Source: an uncultured Rhodospirillales bacterium
GTDB lineage: Bacteria > Pseudomonadota > Alphaproteobacteria > Reyranellales > Reyranellaceae
Assembly (NCBI GenBank): GCA_945957125.1
Contig: CAMFJT010000002.1
Span: 1 to 64,000, forward strand
Length of the DNA: 64,000 bases
Direction: 5' to 3'
Under the pieces are notes generated by a model. The model saw only the letters and a program-made list of their open reading frames with translations. It did not search any database and had not been told where the DNA came from. The translations under genes and the position numbers were made by a program. Shown here in pieces: positions 21,800 through 29,711 of the stretch (position 1 is its first letter; every line of letters starts with the position of its first letter).

Positions 21800-24700
21800 T
21801 CAATCGGAAGAGTCCGGGCCTTCAACATCGAGCCGATGGATCTGGACGGGCACGGACTTGCCGCGGACGACGACCTCGCCGACCGGATGCAGGCCGCTGC
21901 TGTCGCCGAGCTGCTCGACCGTCGCACCGGAAACCAGCACGCGCGTGCCATAACTCTTGTTGAGCTGCTCCAGGCGCGCGGCGAGATTCACCGCGTCGCC
22001 GTACACGGCGTAGCTGAGACGCTCGCCCGAGCCGACATTGCCGGCGATGACGTGACCCGTATGGATGCCGATGCGGGTCACCAGCTCGACGCCGCCGAAA
22101 GTGCGTCCGGACACCAGGCGCTGGATCTCGCGCGCGGTGCGCACCGCCTTCTCGGCGTGCTGCGGGTCGGCGATCGGGATGTTGAAGGTGACCAGCATCG
22201 CATCGCCGAGGAACTGGTTGACGATGCCGCCGTTGCGATCGATCGGCTCGATCATCCGCGGGAAATACTCGTTCAGCATCTCGATCACCCGATCCGGCGA
22301 CAGCTGCTCGACGATTCCGGTGAAGCCCTGGATATCGGAATAGAGGATGGTCGCCTGCGTTTCGGTCGGCCGCAGCGAGCCTTGGCCGGCAACGATCGCC
22401 TCCGCGATGCGCCGCGGCACGTACTTGCCGAAAATCTCCCTCAGCTTGCCGTACGCACCCTCGAGCTCGCGCGTCCGCTCCTTGACGTTGATCTCGAGAC
22501 TGTCGGCGTGGGCACGGATCTCCTCGTAGAGCCGGGCGTTCTCGAGCGAGATCACGGCCTGAGCCGCCAGCATGCCCAGCGTCTCGATGCGGTTCGACGT
22601 GAAGGCACCGCGCGCGAGCGCGTTCTCGACATACAGCACACCGACGAGCTTGCCGCGCCCGAGCAGCGGCATGCAAAGCACGGACAGCATCCGATGCGCC
22701 ACGATGAAGGGATCGGCACCATAGGAATCGTCGCGCGAGGCATCGTCGAGGACGACGCTTTCGCCCGTGCGGACCACGTAGTTGATCAGCCGTTCCGGCC
22801 CCTTGCCCGAACCGGCGAAAGGCTGTGGAACCAGGGCCGGGACGCGACCGCTGCCGGTCGCCTCGCCGTGCAGGACAAGCTCGCTGCCGCGCGCCAGCAG
22901 GAGCACTCCGCGGGTCGCGCCGGCATTGATCACCGAGGCTTCGAGGACCTCGGCAACCACGTCGTCGACCAGGATCTTGCCCGAGATCGCGCCGGCCGCG
23001 CGCGTGATGGCGGCGACGTCTAGCATTCCTCTGGTCTCGCTGGTGTAGAGCGCCGTCATGGCGCCCGGCGTCGCGCCATGGTCGCGTGCCGCGCCGAAGA
23101 TCCCGGCATGGCGCTGCTCGAGCTGGGCGACCCAGGCCATCGCCCCCCAGTGGCGATAGCCCTGCCGCGCTTCATGCAGATGCGCGCGCCCCGGCGTGGT
23201 TCGGCCGCGCGCCAGCTCGAACTCGCCCGCCAGCTCGTGGGCCAGCGCCTCGTCGGCGACCATGCCGTGCCGGTTGGCGAGCCGGATCGCATCGGCATAG
23301 GCCTCCTCGGCCTCGAGGACGCGCCCATCCAGCCGCGCGATGCCGGCCTCCAGCAGCCTCTGCTTGTGCAGGTAGCTCTGCGGCGCGTGACGCGACCAGG
23401 TGCGCAGGCGACGCCGGTTGCGCCGTATCGTCCTTAGCGCGGCCCGGCGTTCGGGCCCGTCCATCTCCGGCAGCAGCGCGATCAGCGCCAGCGCCTGATA
23501 AGGCAGGTAATGCGCGGAGAACGCCATGCCGAGCACGACGTTGAAGTTCTCGTCGATCACGCGGGCGCTGGCGACGCAGCCGCGATAGTCCCGCGCCATG
23601 AACTGCTTGAGCAACCGGAACTCGTAGTAGTAGGCCAGCGCCATGCGATCGCGCTCGGTCCAGTAGACGATCTCCGTCGCCTCGTCGAACGGCGGCTCCT
23701 CCACCGCGGGCGCGGCCTCGCCACGCATCTCCCGCACGGCCTGCCGGGCCATGCGGAAGACCCGCTGTGTCTTCTCGTGCTTGTGCTGCAGCACGGCCGC
23801 GTAGCCGGTCTCGAGGATCTCGGCCACCTTTCCCAGGGGCATGCCGCTCATGAAGGCGTACGAGGCGTAGCCGTAGCGGTTGTAGCCGTGGAACTCGAGG
23901 TCGCCCGCTTCCAGCGAGGCATGCGCGCCGTCACTGAAGAAGGGCAGCGTCTCGGCCATGCTCCCGCTCCAGTGCAGGATGAAGCCGCCGAACACCATCG
24001 CCACGCGCCCGCGGATCGCCGGCGGCGCATCGAACAGGTCGATCGCTTCCAGCGCGAGCCGGCCGAACGCCAGCCCGCCGCGCATGTCGCTCAGCACGCC
24101 GCAGAGCACGACCCCGTACATGGCGTAGCTGTAGGGAGAGTAGGCAGCGTTGCCGTAGCGCACGGACAGCCGGACCATGCGCAGTGCCAGGATCGGCATC
24201 AGGTTGCCGCTGTCGAAATAGGCCGGCGCGGTGGCCAGCATCAGGATGCGCATGGCCGCGAGCTTGTGCGGATCGCTCATGCGCCCCATCCGCCGCAGAT
24301 CGTCCACGCGCTTGCCGGCCAGCGCGAGCTTGGTGCCGGCCAGTTCGGCCATCACGTGAAACTGGCTCGGGTCGCGCGGTATCCGCTCCCCGAGCAGCTC
24401 GAGCGCGCGGCGGGCCGCGTCGAGCGCCCGCCGGTATTGCAGCCGCGTGGTGTGCGCCAGCACGAGCTGCTCGAGCACCGCCACCTTGTCGAGCGGCTGC
24501 TCGGTGCGGCCCAGCAGATCGTCGGCCAGATGCTCGGCTTCCTCGAAGCGGCCGCAGAGATACATCGCCTCGACATGGCAGAGCTCGAGATCGTGACGCA
24601 GGCGCGGATCGTCTCCGCCGTCGATCAGCGCGAGGCCGGCCGCGTAGTGCGCGAGCGCCGCCTCGTAGGCGTTGGAGCCGCGTGCCTTGCGCCCCGCGCG

Positions 24701-26953
24701 GAGGTTGAGGGCCGCGAGTTCCGCCCGTCGCTCGCGCGGCACCGGCAGGGATGCCGCGAGATTGAGATGGCCGACGATCTCGAACAGCCGATCCTCGCGC
24801 TGCTCGGGTGTCGAACGTTCGTGAAGCAGCTCGCCGATATGGGCGTGCAGCCCAGGTCGTTCGCCTGCCGGGATCATGGCATAGGCAGCCTGCTGCAACC
24901 GGTCGTGCGCGAAACGGTAGGAGATCTCCGCTTCCGGCGATCCTGCGGACCAGCGGGCATATCTGTAGCTCTCGCCGATCGGGGCGATAATCTCCTGGGC
25001 GAGCGGCTCGGCGAGCGCCGCCGCCGTCTCGCGCGGCGTGCCGCCCGACACCAGCGCGAGAGTCTCGAGATCGAAATGGTTGCCGATCGCCGCGGCCACC
25101 CGCACCAGGCGCTGGACCGGCGGCGCGAGCCGGGCGATGCGGCCGGTGACGAGCTCGACGACGTTGTCGGCGATCTGCTCGTGCCGGATGCGTTCGACGT
25201 CCCAGGTCCAGCGCCCCATCGCGGCGTCGAACACGAGCAGCCTCTTGTCCTCGAGCGTGTGCAGGAACTGGCGGACGAAGAACGGATTGCCCAGGGTCTT
25301 CGCGGTCACCAGATCGGCGAGGGGAGCGACCTCGTCGACGGGGACCCGCAGCGTGTCGGAAATCAGCGGCGTGACACTGTCGCGCCCCAGCGCCGGCAGG
25401 ACGATGCGCCGGCAGGGCGCCTTCTCGCGCGCCAGGCTGGCGAGCATCGCTTCCAGCGGATGGCCACGATGGACCTCGCTGTCGCGATAGGCACCGATGA
25501 TCAGCAGCCCGCCGAGATCGGGGTCGGTCATCAGCACCTCGATCAGGGCGAGCGAGGCGCTATCGGCCCATTGCAGGTCGTCGAGGAAGATCACCAGCGG
25601 ATGACGTGGGCTGGCCAGCGCCCGCATCAGGCGGCGGAACACCAGGTTGAAGCGCTGCTGCGCCTCGGCAGCGCCCAGCGTCGGCGCTTCCGGTACCTCG
25701 CCGATCAGCCGCTCGAGGCCCGGCACGACGTCGAGCACGACCCGCGCATTGGGGCCCATCGTCTCGAGCACGGCGCGGCGCCACTGCTCGACACGCTCGG
25801 AGGTGTCCCCGAGCAGCTTGCGCGCCAGCTCCTCGAACGCCTGGCCGATCGCCCGATACGGCGTGCCACGGTTGAGCTGGTCGAACTTGCCCGAGATCAG
25901 GTGGCCGCGGCGGCCCGCCACCGGACGCATCACCTCGCGCACCAGCGACGACTTGCCGACGCCCGAGCTTCCGGCGATCAGCACGAGCTGGGCGCGACCG
26001 AGGGCCACGCCGTCGACGGCTTCGATCAGCGTCGCGAGCTCGGCCTCCCGCCCGTACAGGCGCTCGGGCAAGCGCAGGCGATCGGGCACGTCTCGCGCGG
26101 CCAGCACGAAGTCGTCGTCGAGGGTTCCCGTCGCGATCGCCTCGGCCTGTTCCGCGAGGTCGTGCGCGAGGCCAGCGGCGCTCTGGTAGCGCTGGTCCGG
26201 GTCTTTGGCGAGCAGCTTCATCACCAGCCGCGACAGCGGTTGCGGGATGGCGGGATCGATCTCGCGCGGTGGCCGCGGCAGGACGGTGAGGTGACGATGG
26301 ACCAGCTCGGCGCGGTCCTCGATCTCGAACGGCATCCGCCGCACGAGCATCTCGTAGAACGTCACGCCGAGAGCATAGAGATCGGCGCGACCGTCGATGC
26401 TGCGGTTCATGCGACCGGTCTGCTCGGGGGCGATGTACTGCAGCGTGCCCTCGAGCTCTTCGGGGGCGCGGCTGGAGGCGGTCTCGCGCGCCCGCTCGGC
26501 GGCGATGCCGAAATCGGTCAGCCGGGTCGCGAGCGTGCGCGGGTCGACGAGGATGTTTGCCGGCTTTACGTCCTTGTGCACGATATCCCGCGAATGCAGG
26601 CGCGCCAGCGTTCCGGCGATCTGGCAGGCGATGCGGAAGAACGACGACAGCGGCAGCGACCGGCCGTCGAGATAGCGTTCGAGCGAGACCTGGCCGGTGT
26701 CCGGGAAAACGAGGGCGTGGTGGCGCCCCGCCCGCTCGAGAGCGATCGCGCTGGCGATGCCGGCGTCGCCGAGGCCGGATGTCAGCTCGAACTCATGCTC
26801 AAGGCGAGCCCGCGCCTGCCCGTCGGCGTGGCGGCCGTCGTCGACCTTGACGACCACCGCGGCACCGTCGCCGAGGCGCGTGGCGCGATAGATCGAGTAC
26901 GACGTTCCGGCGTGAACCGTCTCGTCGATGCGATAGCCCGGGAGGTCGGTCAC
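21800..26953 (-). CDS. Ser/Thr protein kinase - AAA ATPase - GAF - class III nucleotidyl cyclase multidomain protein
   Basis: IVHKDVKPANILVD...LTDFGIAA (kinase); LVLIAGSSGVGKSSLVREV...PLVIFLDDLQWADSASL (ATPase); GAF-like RGVLLLARGSELVLHGEA; ILYSDIQGFTGIVEQLSPDRVIEMLNEYF...LSYAVYGDAVNLAARLE (cyclase). GTG start inferred. Confidence 0.9.
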   Translation of the reverse strand: MTDLPGYRIDETVHAGTSYSIYRATRLGDGAAVVVKVDDGRHADGQARARLEHEFELTSGLGDAGIASAIALERAGRHHALVFPDTGQVSLERYLDGRSLPLSSFFRIACQIAGTLARLHSRDIVHKDVKPANILVDPRTLATRLTDFGIAAERARETASSRAPEELEGTLQYIAPEQTGRMNRSIDGRADLYALGVTFYEMLVRRMPFEIEDRAELVHRHLTVLPRPPREIDPAIPQPLSRLVMKLLAKDPDQRYQSAAGLAHDLAEQAEAIATGTLDDDFVLAARDVPDRLRLPERLYGREAELATLIEAVDGVALGRAQLVLIAGSSGVGKSSLVREVMRPVAGRRGHLISGKFDQLNRGTPYRAIGQAFEELARKLLGDTSERVEQWRRAVLETMGPNARVVLDVVPGLERLIGEVPEAPTLGAAEAQQRFNLVFRRLMRALASPRHPLVIFLDDLQWADSASLALIEVLMTDPDLGGLLIIGAYRDSEVHRGHPLEAMLASLAREKAPCRRIVLPALGRDSVTPLISDTLRVPVDEVAPLADLVTAKTLGNPFFVRQFLHTLEDKRLLVFDAAMGRWTWDVERIRHEQIADNVVELVTGRIARLAPPVQRLVRVAAAIGNHFDLETLALVSGGTPRETAAALAEPLAQEIIAPIGESYRYARWSAGSPEAEISYRFAHDRLQQAAYAMIPAGERPGLHAHIGELLHERSTPEQREDRLFEIVGHLNLAASLPVPRERRAELAALNLRAGRKARGSNAYEAALAHYAAGLALIDGGDDPRLRHDLELCHVEAMYLCGRFEEAEHLADDLLGRTEQPLDKVAVLEQLVLAHTTRLQYRRALDAARRALELLGERIPRDPSQFHVMAELAGTKLALAGKRVDDLRRMGRMSDPHKLAAMRILMLATAPAYFDSGNLMPILALRMVRLSVRYGNAAYSPYSYAMYGVVLCGVLSDMRGGLAFGRLALEAIDLFDAPPAIRGRVAMVFGGFILHWSGSMAETLPFFSDGAHASLEAGDLEFHGYNRYGYASYAFMSGMPLGKVAEILETGYAAVLQHKHEKTQRVFRMARQAVREMRGEAAPAVEEPPFDEATEIVYWTERDRMALAYYYEFRLLKQFMARDYRGCVASARVIDENFNVVLGMAFSAHYLPYQALALIALLPEMDGPERRAALRTIRRNRRRLRTWSRHAPQSYLHKQRLLEAGIARLDGRVLEAEEAYADAIRLANRHGMVADEALAHELAGEFELARGRTTPGRAHLHEARQGYRHWGAMAWVAQLEQRHAGIFGAARDHGATPGAMTALYTSETRGMLDVAAITRAAGAISGKILVDDVVAEVLEASVINAGATRGVLLLARGSELVLHGEATGSGRVPALVPQPFAGSGKGPERLINYVVRTGESVVLDDASRDDSYGADPFIVAHRMLSVLCMPLLGRGKLVGVLYVENALARGAFTSNRIETLGMLAAQAVISLENARLYEEIRAHADSLEINVKERTRELEGAYGKLREIFGKYVPRRIAEAIVAGQGSLRPTETQATILYSDIQGFTGIVEQLSPDRVIEMLNEYFPRMIEPIDRNGGIVNQFLGDAMLVTFNIPIADPQHAEKAVRTAREIQRLVSGRTFGGVELVTRIGIHTGHVIAGNVGSGERLSYAVYGDAVNLAARLEQLNKSYGTRVLVSGATVEQLGDSSGLHPVGEVVVRGKSVPVQIHRLDVEGPDSSD

Positions 26954-26972
26954 GGCTTGCACCGGCGCAGCC

Positions 26973-29711
26973 TCAGATCTCGATGCTGCCGTAGAGGAAC
27001 TTCGGATGCAGGTAGGTGTAGGGCACGGCCAGCCCTTCATTGCGGGCATCGATCTCCCGGGCGATCGCCTGCAGCGACCGGACGAAGCGATCGACCATCG
27101 GCGCAATCTCGGGATTGCCGGCGAAGAAACGGGTGGGATAGCGCCCGAGCGGCTCCTCGGTCGGCTCGCTCAGCAGGTGGACCATGCCGATCTGCTGCAC
27201 CGCGACGGCCGGTCCCGGCAGCGCATCGAACAGGCTTTGCTCGGAGAGCGGCGCCTTGCTCGCGGGCGGCGGCGCGAACATCGTTCCCGGAACGTTGGGA
27301 ATGTAGCCGTACATGTCGAACTGGCCGTTGTTCGTGCTGGAATGCTCGGCCGTGGCGATGAAGATCATCGTGGTCGCGACCTGCACCAGCCGATCGACCG
27401 AGCCGAGCCCGCCATTGCGGTCGGCGAGGCCGCGGAAATCGCCGGCCTCCGGGTCGGCCAGCTCGTGCACCCACGCCTGCAGCTCGACGTCGGCGGCGAC
27501 GTCGGCGTCACTGCGATAGAAGCGCCGCAGCACCTCGCCGGCGAATCCGGCAATGGCGTCCCAGATCTTCAGGGCGTCGTCACGATAGTGATAGCCCGGC
27601 AGCTTCTCCGGATCGTCCACGCCGCGTTCGGCGAGATCGCCGCGCAGATCGTATTGCGCGAAAGACCATGTCTTCCAGGCTTTGGCGCACAGTGCGAGAG
27701 CGCCGTCGCGACCGACGCCGAGCGAATTGTCGATCGGGCCCCCCGGCGCCAGCATCCTGGTGCGCGCCGACCGGTTGATCGCCATCGTGAAGCGGCAATG
27801 CGGCACGAGAAGCTGGTGGAGCGGATGGGCCTGGCTGAGCTGGCGATGGGTCGCGACGGCGACCGTCTCGAGCACCATGTGCGTGCGCAGCAGGTGCGAG
27901 ACGCATTCCTGCACCTGCGCATCGGCACACTGGACATGGGTCTTCACGGTACGCCACAGCCAGGGATCGTCCGACGGCGTGAAGATCGGGCCGCTCGCCG
28001 GCGATTGCCCGAGCTGGATGGCGAGCGGCATCAGGCGGCCCTGCCCGTCGACATGGAACAGGCACATCGGTGCGCACAGGAAGCGACCCGGTGCCGCAGC
28101 GATACCGTCGAGAACGCCGAGATCGAGCAGGTAGAGACGGCCGGCGCCGCGCAGTGTCGCCAGGTCGGGCCCCTCCCCCAGCACCGGCGCCACGATCGCC
28201 TGATCGACCGGAAAATTGGCCGGTATGGCCTCGCATCGCCGCAGCAGGAAGGGATTGACGCCGTCGAGACGCTGGCGGGCGAACTCCTCGTCGCTGGCAT
28301 AACGCGCGCTGACCGACGGCAGATCGAGCAGCGAGTTGTCGTCGAAGAAATCGTCGAAGGCCCGCAGGGAGCGCGAAGGGTCGAACGTCTTCTCGATGGC
28401 ACCGAGCCCCAGGGCGACCACCGTGCCGGCGATGTCCCAGGCCAGGCGGCTGTCCTTCTCGAAGGAGAACGCCTCGTCCGCCGGAAGGTCGCGGACGTAG
28501 GACGGCAAGCCATCGTCGCGCGTGAACTGGTAGAGCCCGCGCGCCTGCTCGAGCAGCCTCGTTCGCGTGCGACGGCGCTGCCGGCTCTCGTCCTGGGGCA
28601 GCCGTGCGTCCATCCAGACGTCGTTCGTGGTGATGCGTGACGGCGCCTCGTCGGGGTAAGAGGCCGACGGGCGGACCTCGGGCACCGGCTTCGGCGCACC
28701 GAACAGGCGCATGCCGAGCAGCCGCGCGCGATGCGCCCAGGCGCCGCCGACGCGCAGATATTCGAGCGACGGCGGATCGTGGATCGACAGCGGCGCGATG
28801 AGGCGGATGCAATCGGGATGGTTGGTGATGGGGAACACGCAGCGATAGCCGTACGGATCGGCTTCATGGATCGCATCGATATGGACGGTGGCCAGCTTCA
28901 TCCAGGGATGGGTCGATTCCTCCCAAGCATACAGGCTGTTGATGACAATCTCGCGCCGGTCGCCGGCCTGCCATTCGTGGAGCTGGATTTCCAGATGATA
29001 GGTCGCGCCACGCCGGCCGACGCGCTCGCGATATTCGTCCTTGAGATAGTTTGGCGGGAGGGTCTCTCCCGGACGGGCCTCCTGAAACCACGGCGTGGCG
29101 AGATCCTCCTCGCGCGGCAGGCCGGTCTCCGGCCCCCGGTCTTCAGGCAGCAGGCGGAACTTGCAGTAGCGCAGCCGGCCGTCCCTGGCGCGGAACTCGA
29201 ACGGCGTCTGAGATTGGTAGTGGAGCTGGGTGAACGAGCTCGGGCGCAGCCGGAGCGCCACGTTGACGTTTTCGAAGCAACGCGGGTTCGCCTGGAAATA
29301 GGGGATCAGGTGAGCGCGCCCGCCACGCATCCGGCACCACATGAAATGGGCGAACGTGGCCATGTTCCAGAACGGCGAGGCCGTGCCGCCATTCATCAGC
29401 AGGTCGAGCGGGCTGTCGATATCGGCGTCCGCGAACTTCAGCGACGCGCCGCGCACGAACAGCCCGGCATCGTCCATCAGGCTGACGGATGCATGCCGCA
29501 GGCGGCAGGCGAACACGCGGCCCGGCCGGAAGAAGTCGGTGTCGGGGATGGCGAGATCGTCGACGATGCGGACGCTCCCGCGCGCGACGATGCCGTTCTG
29601 ATGCGACATGCGCGTCCGCGTCACGAGACTGTTCAATGCAATCGCCGTCACGCAAGCCGTACGAAGACCCGCGAGTTGCAGCCTTGCCCACCAGGTCGGC
29701 TTAGTCGCCAC
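26973..29711 (-). CDS. catalase-like (allene oxide synthase-like) domain fused to lipoxygenase
   Basis: N-terminus RVFACRLRHASVSLMDD...VRGASLKFADADIDSPLDLLMNGGTASPFWN resembles catalase-fold cAOS. Lipoxygenase: ECVSHLLRTHMVLE, TMAINRSARTRML, AEHSSTNNGQFDMYGYIPNVPGTM, C-terminal Ile. Start may be 29609. Confidence 0.88.
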   Translation of the reverse strand: MATKPTWWARLQLAGLRTACVTAIALNSLVTRTRMSHQNGIVARGSVRIVDDLAIPDTDFFRPGRVFACRLRHASVSLMDDAGLFVRGASLKFADADIDSPLDLLMNGGTASPFWNMATFAHFMWCRMRGGRAHLIPYFQANPRCFENVNVALRLRPSSFTQLHYQSQTPFEFRARDGRLRYCKFRLLPEDRGPETGLPREEDLATPWFQEARPGETLPPNYLKDEYRERVGRRGATYHLEIQLHEWQAGDRREIVINSLYAWEESTHPWMKLATVHIDAIHEADPYGYRCVFPITNHPDCIRLIAPLSIHDPPSLEYLRVGGAWAHRARLLGMRLFGAPKPVPEVRPSASYPDEAPSRITTNDVWMDARLPQDESRQRRRTRTRLLEQARGLYQFTRDDGLPSYVRDLPADEAFSFEKDSRLAWDIAGTVVALGLGAIEKTFDPSRSLRAFDDFFDDNSLLDLPSVSARYASDEEFARQRLDGVNPFLLRRCEAIPANFPVDQAIVAPVLGEGPDLATLRGAGRLYLLDLGVLDGIAAAPGRFLCAPMCLFHVDGQGRLMPLAIQLGQSPASGPIFTPSDDPWLWRTVKTHVQCADAQVQECVSHLLRTHMVLETVAVATHRQLSQAHPLHQLLVPHCRFTMAINRSARTRMLAPGGPIDNSLGVGRDGALALCAKAWKTWSFAQYDLRGDLAERGVDDPEKLPGYHYRDDALKIWDAIAGFAGEVLRRFYRSDADVAADVELQAWVHELADPEAGDFRGLADRNGGLGSVDRLVQVATTMIFIATAEHSSTNNGQFDMYGYIPNVPGTMFAPPPASKAPLSEQSLFDALPGPAVAVQQIGMVHLLSEPTEEPLGRYPTRFFAGNPEIAPMVDRFVRSLQAIAREIDARNEGLAVPYTYLHPKFLYGSIEI

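Follow-up and report, generated by a model that had tools for sequence, protein, structure and literature searches.

A catalase-like::lipoxygenase fusion from Reyranella that lacks the proximal heme tyrosine and is paired with a kinase-cyclase gene

Characterised fusions of a catalase-type domain with a lipoxygenase (LOX) are paired oxylipin enzymes, and their first domain needs a tyrosine-ligated heme. The LOX part of the cyanobacterial fusions (Anabaena, Acaryochloris marina) is a mini-LOX without PLAT domain, and the heme domain of the Acaryochloris protein is active. In coral allene oxide synthase (cAOS), R64, R102 and R360 coordinate the heme, T66, H67 and N137 lie on the distal side, and the proximal ligand is Y353, which is common to cAOS and catalases (PMC5617202). 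Fusions of a catalase-related domain to LOX have also been described in cyanobacteria, where the Anabaena protein forms an allylic epoxide from hydroperoxide (PMC11719350).

The window studied here, a stretch of 64,000 nucleotides, carries on its minus strand a coding sequence of 912 amino acids (26973..29711; it opens with GTG at 29711, ends with the stop codon at 26975-26973 and has no internal stop) in which a cAOS-like domain precedes a LOX in a single chain. Judging by its relatives, the host is a Reyranella, a soil bacterium. We compared this copy with three orthologs, L012 (Rhodospirillales bacterium URHD0017, G014), L013 and L014 (Reyranella sp., G006); the start codon position is matched in the orthologs, and the frame is uninterrupted in our own copy, L012 and L013, while L014 and L015 are one fusion locus divided by contig ends. 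The best PDB match by phmmer was coral AOS-LOX 3dy5, obtained in two pieces (residues 32-332 on 62-362, and 382-905 on 504-1059). Coral residues ~363-503, which include the PLAT domain, found no counterpart in this search, and the layout is thus catalase-like::mini-LOX. The original prediction of one 912-residue frame joining two modules was borne out, with the strand added, and Pfam and phmmer lend good support to its proposal that an alphaproteobacterium has an AOS-like::LOX fusion. At the N-terminus, hydropathy in the four orthologs points to a putative membrane-associating segment at residues 7-30 (WWARLQLAGLRTACVTAIALNSLV; 29622..29693, minus strand), predicted as a helix only in a low-confidence AlphaFold2 model (full fusion, four-sequence alignment, mean pLDDT 33). 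This helix may carry the enzyme to membranes, a role filled elsewhere by PLAT.

The mini-LOX part spans residues 382-912, with its core at 470-892 (26976..28568, minus strand; Pfam, phmmer). PF00305 matched residues 470-892 with 232.6 bits (E=1.2e-68), above the curated cut-off of 23.6, in the Pfam check that had been proposed for this half. All five iron ligands (three His, Asn and C-terminal Ile) are present on the minus strand: H606 and H611 in HLLRTH (27879..27896), H790 and N794 in HSSTN (27330..27344), and I912 (26976..26978), as had been read earlier from the HLLRTH pair, the His/Asn of AEHSSTN and the terminal Ile. According to the Coffa rule, Ala at the stereocontrol position predicts S oxygenation. 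The fusion has A649 at this position (27765..27767, minus strand), where coral 8R-LOX has Gly, and most likely would oxygenate with S stereochemistry. In a small tree, the fusion LOX clusters with the coral and human ALOX15B enzymes (support 0.90), and the other LOXs in the sample, from proteobacteria and cyanobacteria, fall outside this group; with so small a sample, this grouping is a lead. The stretch at the third and fourth ligands (27330-27350, minus strand) reads AEHSSTN, compared to (Q/K)H(A/S)A(V/I)(N/S) in most other sampled LOXs. On the substrate side, the genome has one fatty acid desaturase-family match. Oxylipin synthesis by the host would be implied for the LOX step only.

The catalase-like half (residues 32-332; 28716..29618, minus strand) was delimited by phmmer to 1u5u and by a profile match to heme catalases, and dN/dS values were obtained over the same residues. 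It matches coral cAOS residues 62-362 with E=5.4e-54, far beyond chance, and the N-terminal 380 residues alone had coral cAOS (1u5u, 3dy5) as their only PDB matches. The matched coral structure is a solved catalase-type barrel, which is thereby the putative fold of this half. The earlier view that the N-terminal ~350 residues are AOS-like therefore stands as homology to coral cAOS. The Pfam catalase check gave a different outcome, since PF00199 had no match above cut-off in the fusion (the ortholog L012 reached 14.4 bits against a cut-off of 25). Much of the distal pocket can be traced in pairwise and profile alignments. S36-H37 (29601..29606, minus strand) is the counterpart of coral T66-H67, S36 being a conservative change, and N107 (29391..29393, minus strand) is that of N137. 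In the pairwise alignment coral R64, R102 and R349 fall on R34, R72 and R320, and a match of coral R360 with R330, itself invariant, requires the deletion of one residue. In the family profile, this R-x-x-H and this Asn also line up with those of ordinary heme catalases.

The proximal side is different. The place of the RxxxY motif is occupied by R320-V-G-G-A-W-A-H-R-A-R330 (28722..28754, minus strand), which contains no Tyr; coral RVAVYTW is aligned with RVGG-AW, and Y353 falls on a gap or Ala, the gap being one residue long in phmmer and three residues in MAFFT. Tyr is absent from 4/4 orthologs (RVGGAWAHRARL in our own copy and L014, RVGGALAHKARL in L012, RVGGVLARRARL in L013). Position 324 lies 287 residues after H37, compared to 286 from coral H67 to Y353, which backs the mapping of H37 and position 324. 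In addition, the Tyr of RAIVY in a cAOS-like protein of Sinorhizobium fredii aligns with coral Y353 free of gaps, and a Microvirga mini-catalase (PF00199, 91.8 bits) carries RDSAY. Since these two alphaproteobacterial relatives keep RxxxY, the loss is no alignment artefact of bacterial sequences and, by these alignments, is specific to this clade among the sequences examined. A sequencing error was ruled out because four genomes agree. H327 was also considered as a replacement ligand and ruled out, as it is Arg in L013.

The original prediction had instead described a canonical cAOS-LOX with H73 as distal His and Y352 as proximal ligand. Y352 (28656..28658, minus strand) is indeed invariant in the four orthologs, the raw spacing is near that of coral, and the remark that Arg sits five residues before it (R347/Y352) was correct as stated. 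However, both the coral pairwise and the catalase profile alignments put coral H67 on H37, and H73 simply follows R72, the equivalent of coral R102. Y352 is a linker residue that is not homologous to Y353: it lies 20 residues past the end of the homologous region, and would need a long insertion directly after the well-aligned PSLEYLRV. The spacing of 279 residues between positions 73 and 352 is thus a coincidence, and we regard this canonical arrangement as very improbable. With the proximal Tyr removed, standard cAOS or hydroperoxide lyase (HPL) heme chemistry is most likely no longer performed by the N-terminal domain, and what looks like a bifunctional fusion is probably a single-chemistry enzyme. 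It had been anticipated that the heme activity could either differ (AOS, HPL or epoxide formation) or be lost; the lack of Tyr in all four copies weakens the first option and makes loss the likelier one.

Loss of the ligand could mean that the N-terminal domain is fading away and serves folding or solubility only. Nei-Gojobori dN/dS ratios between orthologs were 0.11-0.22 for residues 32-332 and 0.12-0.18 for the LOX core (470-784), while the linker ranged over 0.06-0.34 and the pre-LOX stretch over 0.27-0.47; ratios that involve L013 are rough, as dS was mostly >1 for this copy. A useless remnant is not expected under constraint like that of a catalytic core, and the domain is also ~80% identical across orthologs, pocket residues included. 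Decay is accordingly improbable in our estimation. The similarity in dN/dS to the LOX core indicates purifying selection, and the Tyr-less domain has probably been repurposed rather than left to decay.

The kept arginines leave one main rival to this reading, namely that the N-terminal domain still binds heme, through the conserved arginines and another axial ligand, and acts on the hydroperoxide made by the LOX with AOS, HPL or epoxide chemistry, perhaps in altered form. None of the four orthologs departs from R34, R72, S36, H37, N107 or R320, the domain is under strong purifying selection, and conversion of the LOX product is the fusion logic of the homologues in corals and cyanobacteria (PMC5617202, PMC11719350). 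On the other side, no Tyr, His, Cys or Met stands at the ligand position in all four sequences (H327 giving way to Arg in L013), Y352 is outside the homologous region, and coral K107, a postulated carboxylate anchor, is replaced by Ser/Thr in the fusion family. Heme retention therefore appears unlikely to us, but it deserves more weight than the canonical or the decaying enzyme.

The fusion is rare. It was found in 3/65 Reyranella genomes, and the fourth copy, L013, is located on a 9.7-kb contig of a metagenome-assembled genome binned as Burkholderiales, where the binning is a label only; its GC3 of 0.70, compared to 0.85-0.88 in the others, indicates that L013 comes from a different genome. 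No further copy was detected when the N-terminal domain alone was searched against 289 alphaproteobacterial genomes. The whole protein, searched against 386 genomes of the class and 399 of the phylum, gave LOX-region matches only besides its own copy, and the plasmid collection searched contained no fusion. Another alphaproteobacterium has two adjacent LOX matches on a single contig (L005 and L007, G401:C36:762-3997), a possible tandem pair. We found no relevant paper on a Reyranella lipoxygenase and, within the limited open-access literature, no published heme-less catalase-fold LOX partner or Tyr-less fusion.

The neighborhood of the fusion is also constant. In 4/4 loci (L015 being used for the genome with the divided contig) it is situated 18-19 nt upstream of a gene which in the window encodes 1717 amino acids from a GTG start (21800..26953, minus strand) and reads Ser/Thr kinase, AAA_16, an unassigned middle part, GAF and class III nucleotide cyclase; the gap here is 19 nt (26954..26972, minus strand). 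When the middle part of this partner was searched in the genus, orthologs at 72% and 81% identity were found only in the fusion-bearing genomes (3/65), the next best match having 30% identity, and no LOX partner was seen among the neighbors of the 30%-identical kinases. The chance of an exact 3-in-65 coincidence would be 1 in 43,680 assuming independence, but neighboring genes are not independent, and the co-occurrence therefore reflects joint inheritance or transfer. We infer a functional coupling of the two genes. The partner protein is weakly similar to a TOMM kinase/cyclase model, far below its cut-off. In URHD0017, a frame that by eye resembles an IS transposase/integrase core (L012 16677-17552, minus strand) lies just downstream of the pair and is consistent with mobility of the pair.

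Taken together, the missing Tyr in four copies and the constant kinase/cyclase neighbor suggest that the front half of the fusion has probably been repurposed. The explanation that we favor, as reasonably probable, is a working S-type mini-lipoxygenase joined to a heme-defective partner of cAOS fold and coupled to signaling. The intact mini-LOX would oxygenate a polyunsaturated acyl chain with O2, giving a fatty-acyl hydroperoxide. The N-terminal domain derives from the catalase-related allene oxide synthases, with much of the distal pocket kept, and a short deletion in its last helix probably took the proximal Tyr before the four known copies diverged. Most likely the Tyr-less domain was then retained for a structural role, for binding lipids or hydroperoxides, or for regulation, and not as a second catalyst. 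Because the fusion gene travels with the kinase-cyclase gene, a link to signaling is probable in one direction or the other: the LOX product, or the fusion's own state, would be an input to the kinase-AAA-GAF-cyclase protein or be under its control. The sequences show the fusion, the residues kept and lost, the selection and the gene pair; LOX activity, heme absence, repurposing and the link to signaling are what we infer. Some points weigh against this explanation: a protein that never bound heme would hardly be expected to retain the heme-coordinating R34, R72 and perhaps R330, the orthologs number four, the one desaturase-family match is no more than a putative source of polyunsaturated fatty acids, and neighboring genes may co-occur because they were transferred together, even if their functions are not coupled. 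A more tentative extension, which we see as having a modest chance of being right, is that the domain is a heme-free or differently ligated lipid hydroperoxide sensor, fused to the LOX that produces these hydroperoxides and wired to a dedicated kinase/cyclase, so that the pair would constitute a mobile oxylipin-to-second-messenger pathway.

A conserved Tyr-less subfamily is a natural experiment on the roles that this domain may have besides catalysis. Moreover, what bacteria use lipoxygenases for is still a largely open question, and the fact that this fusion is paired exclusively with a kinase-cyclase gene provides a link in bacteria from LOX products to signaling that can be tested.

Among known systems, the standalone cAOS-like protein P0005 of S. 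fredii pNGR234a is 31% identical to the fusion domain and has the RATH and LMN motifs in common with it, but differs in keeping RAIVY and in having no LOX partner. The neighbors of P0005 are a patatin-like phospholipase, a RoxA-like di-heme peroxidase and a catalase-like frame, so that this symbiosis plasmid may carry an oxylipin gene cluster. Here (L016 2922-4972, S. fredii NGR234 pNGR234a) the annotated catalase frame overlaps at its end, in another frame, with the start of the cAOS-like frame (RATH...RAIVY), and the overlap resembles a frameshift between two catalase-type domains. The LOX core is ~40% identical to human ALOX15B, an animal-type LOX, from which the fusion differs by its lack of PLAT, its attached catalase-like domain and the AEHSSTN at the third and fourth ligands. 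The cyanobacterial catalase-LOX proteins are likewise bacterial fusions, compared here by description. The coral AOS-LOX and HPL-LOX proteins (Plexaura homomalla 3dy5 and 1u5u; Capnella imbricata) have the same order, cAOS-like domain and then LOX, with 37% identity in the N-terminal domain and ~35% in the LOX, and share with our protein the distal His, the Asn and two heme Arg. Unlike them, the Reyranella fusion has no proximal Tyr, K107 or PLAT domain, has Ala and not Gly at the Coffa position, and carries an N-terminal hydrophobic helix, in a bacterial host and next to a kinase-cyclase gene. It is best read as a variant of the known catalase-LOX fusions, set apart by the loss of Tyr and the kinase-cyclase pairing.
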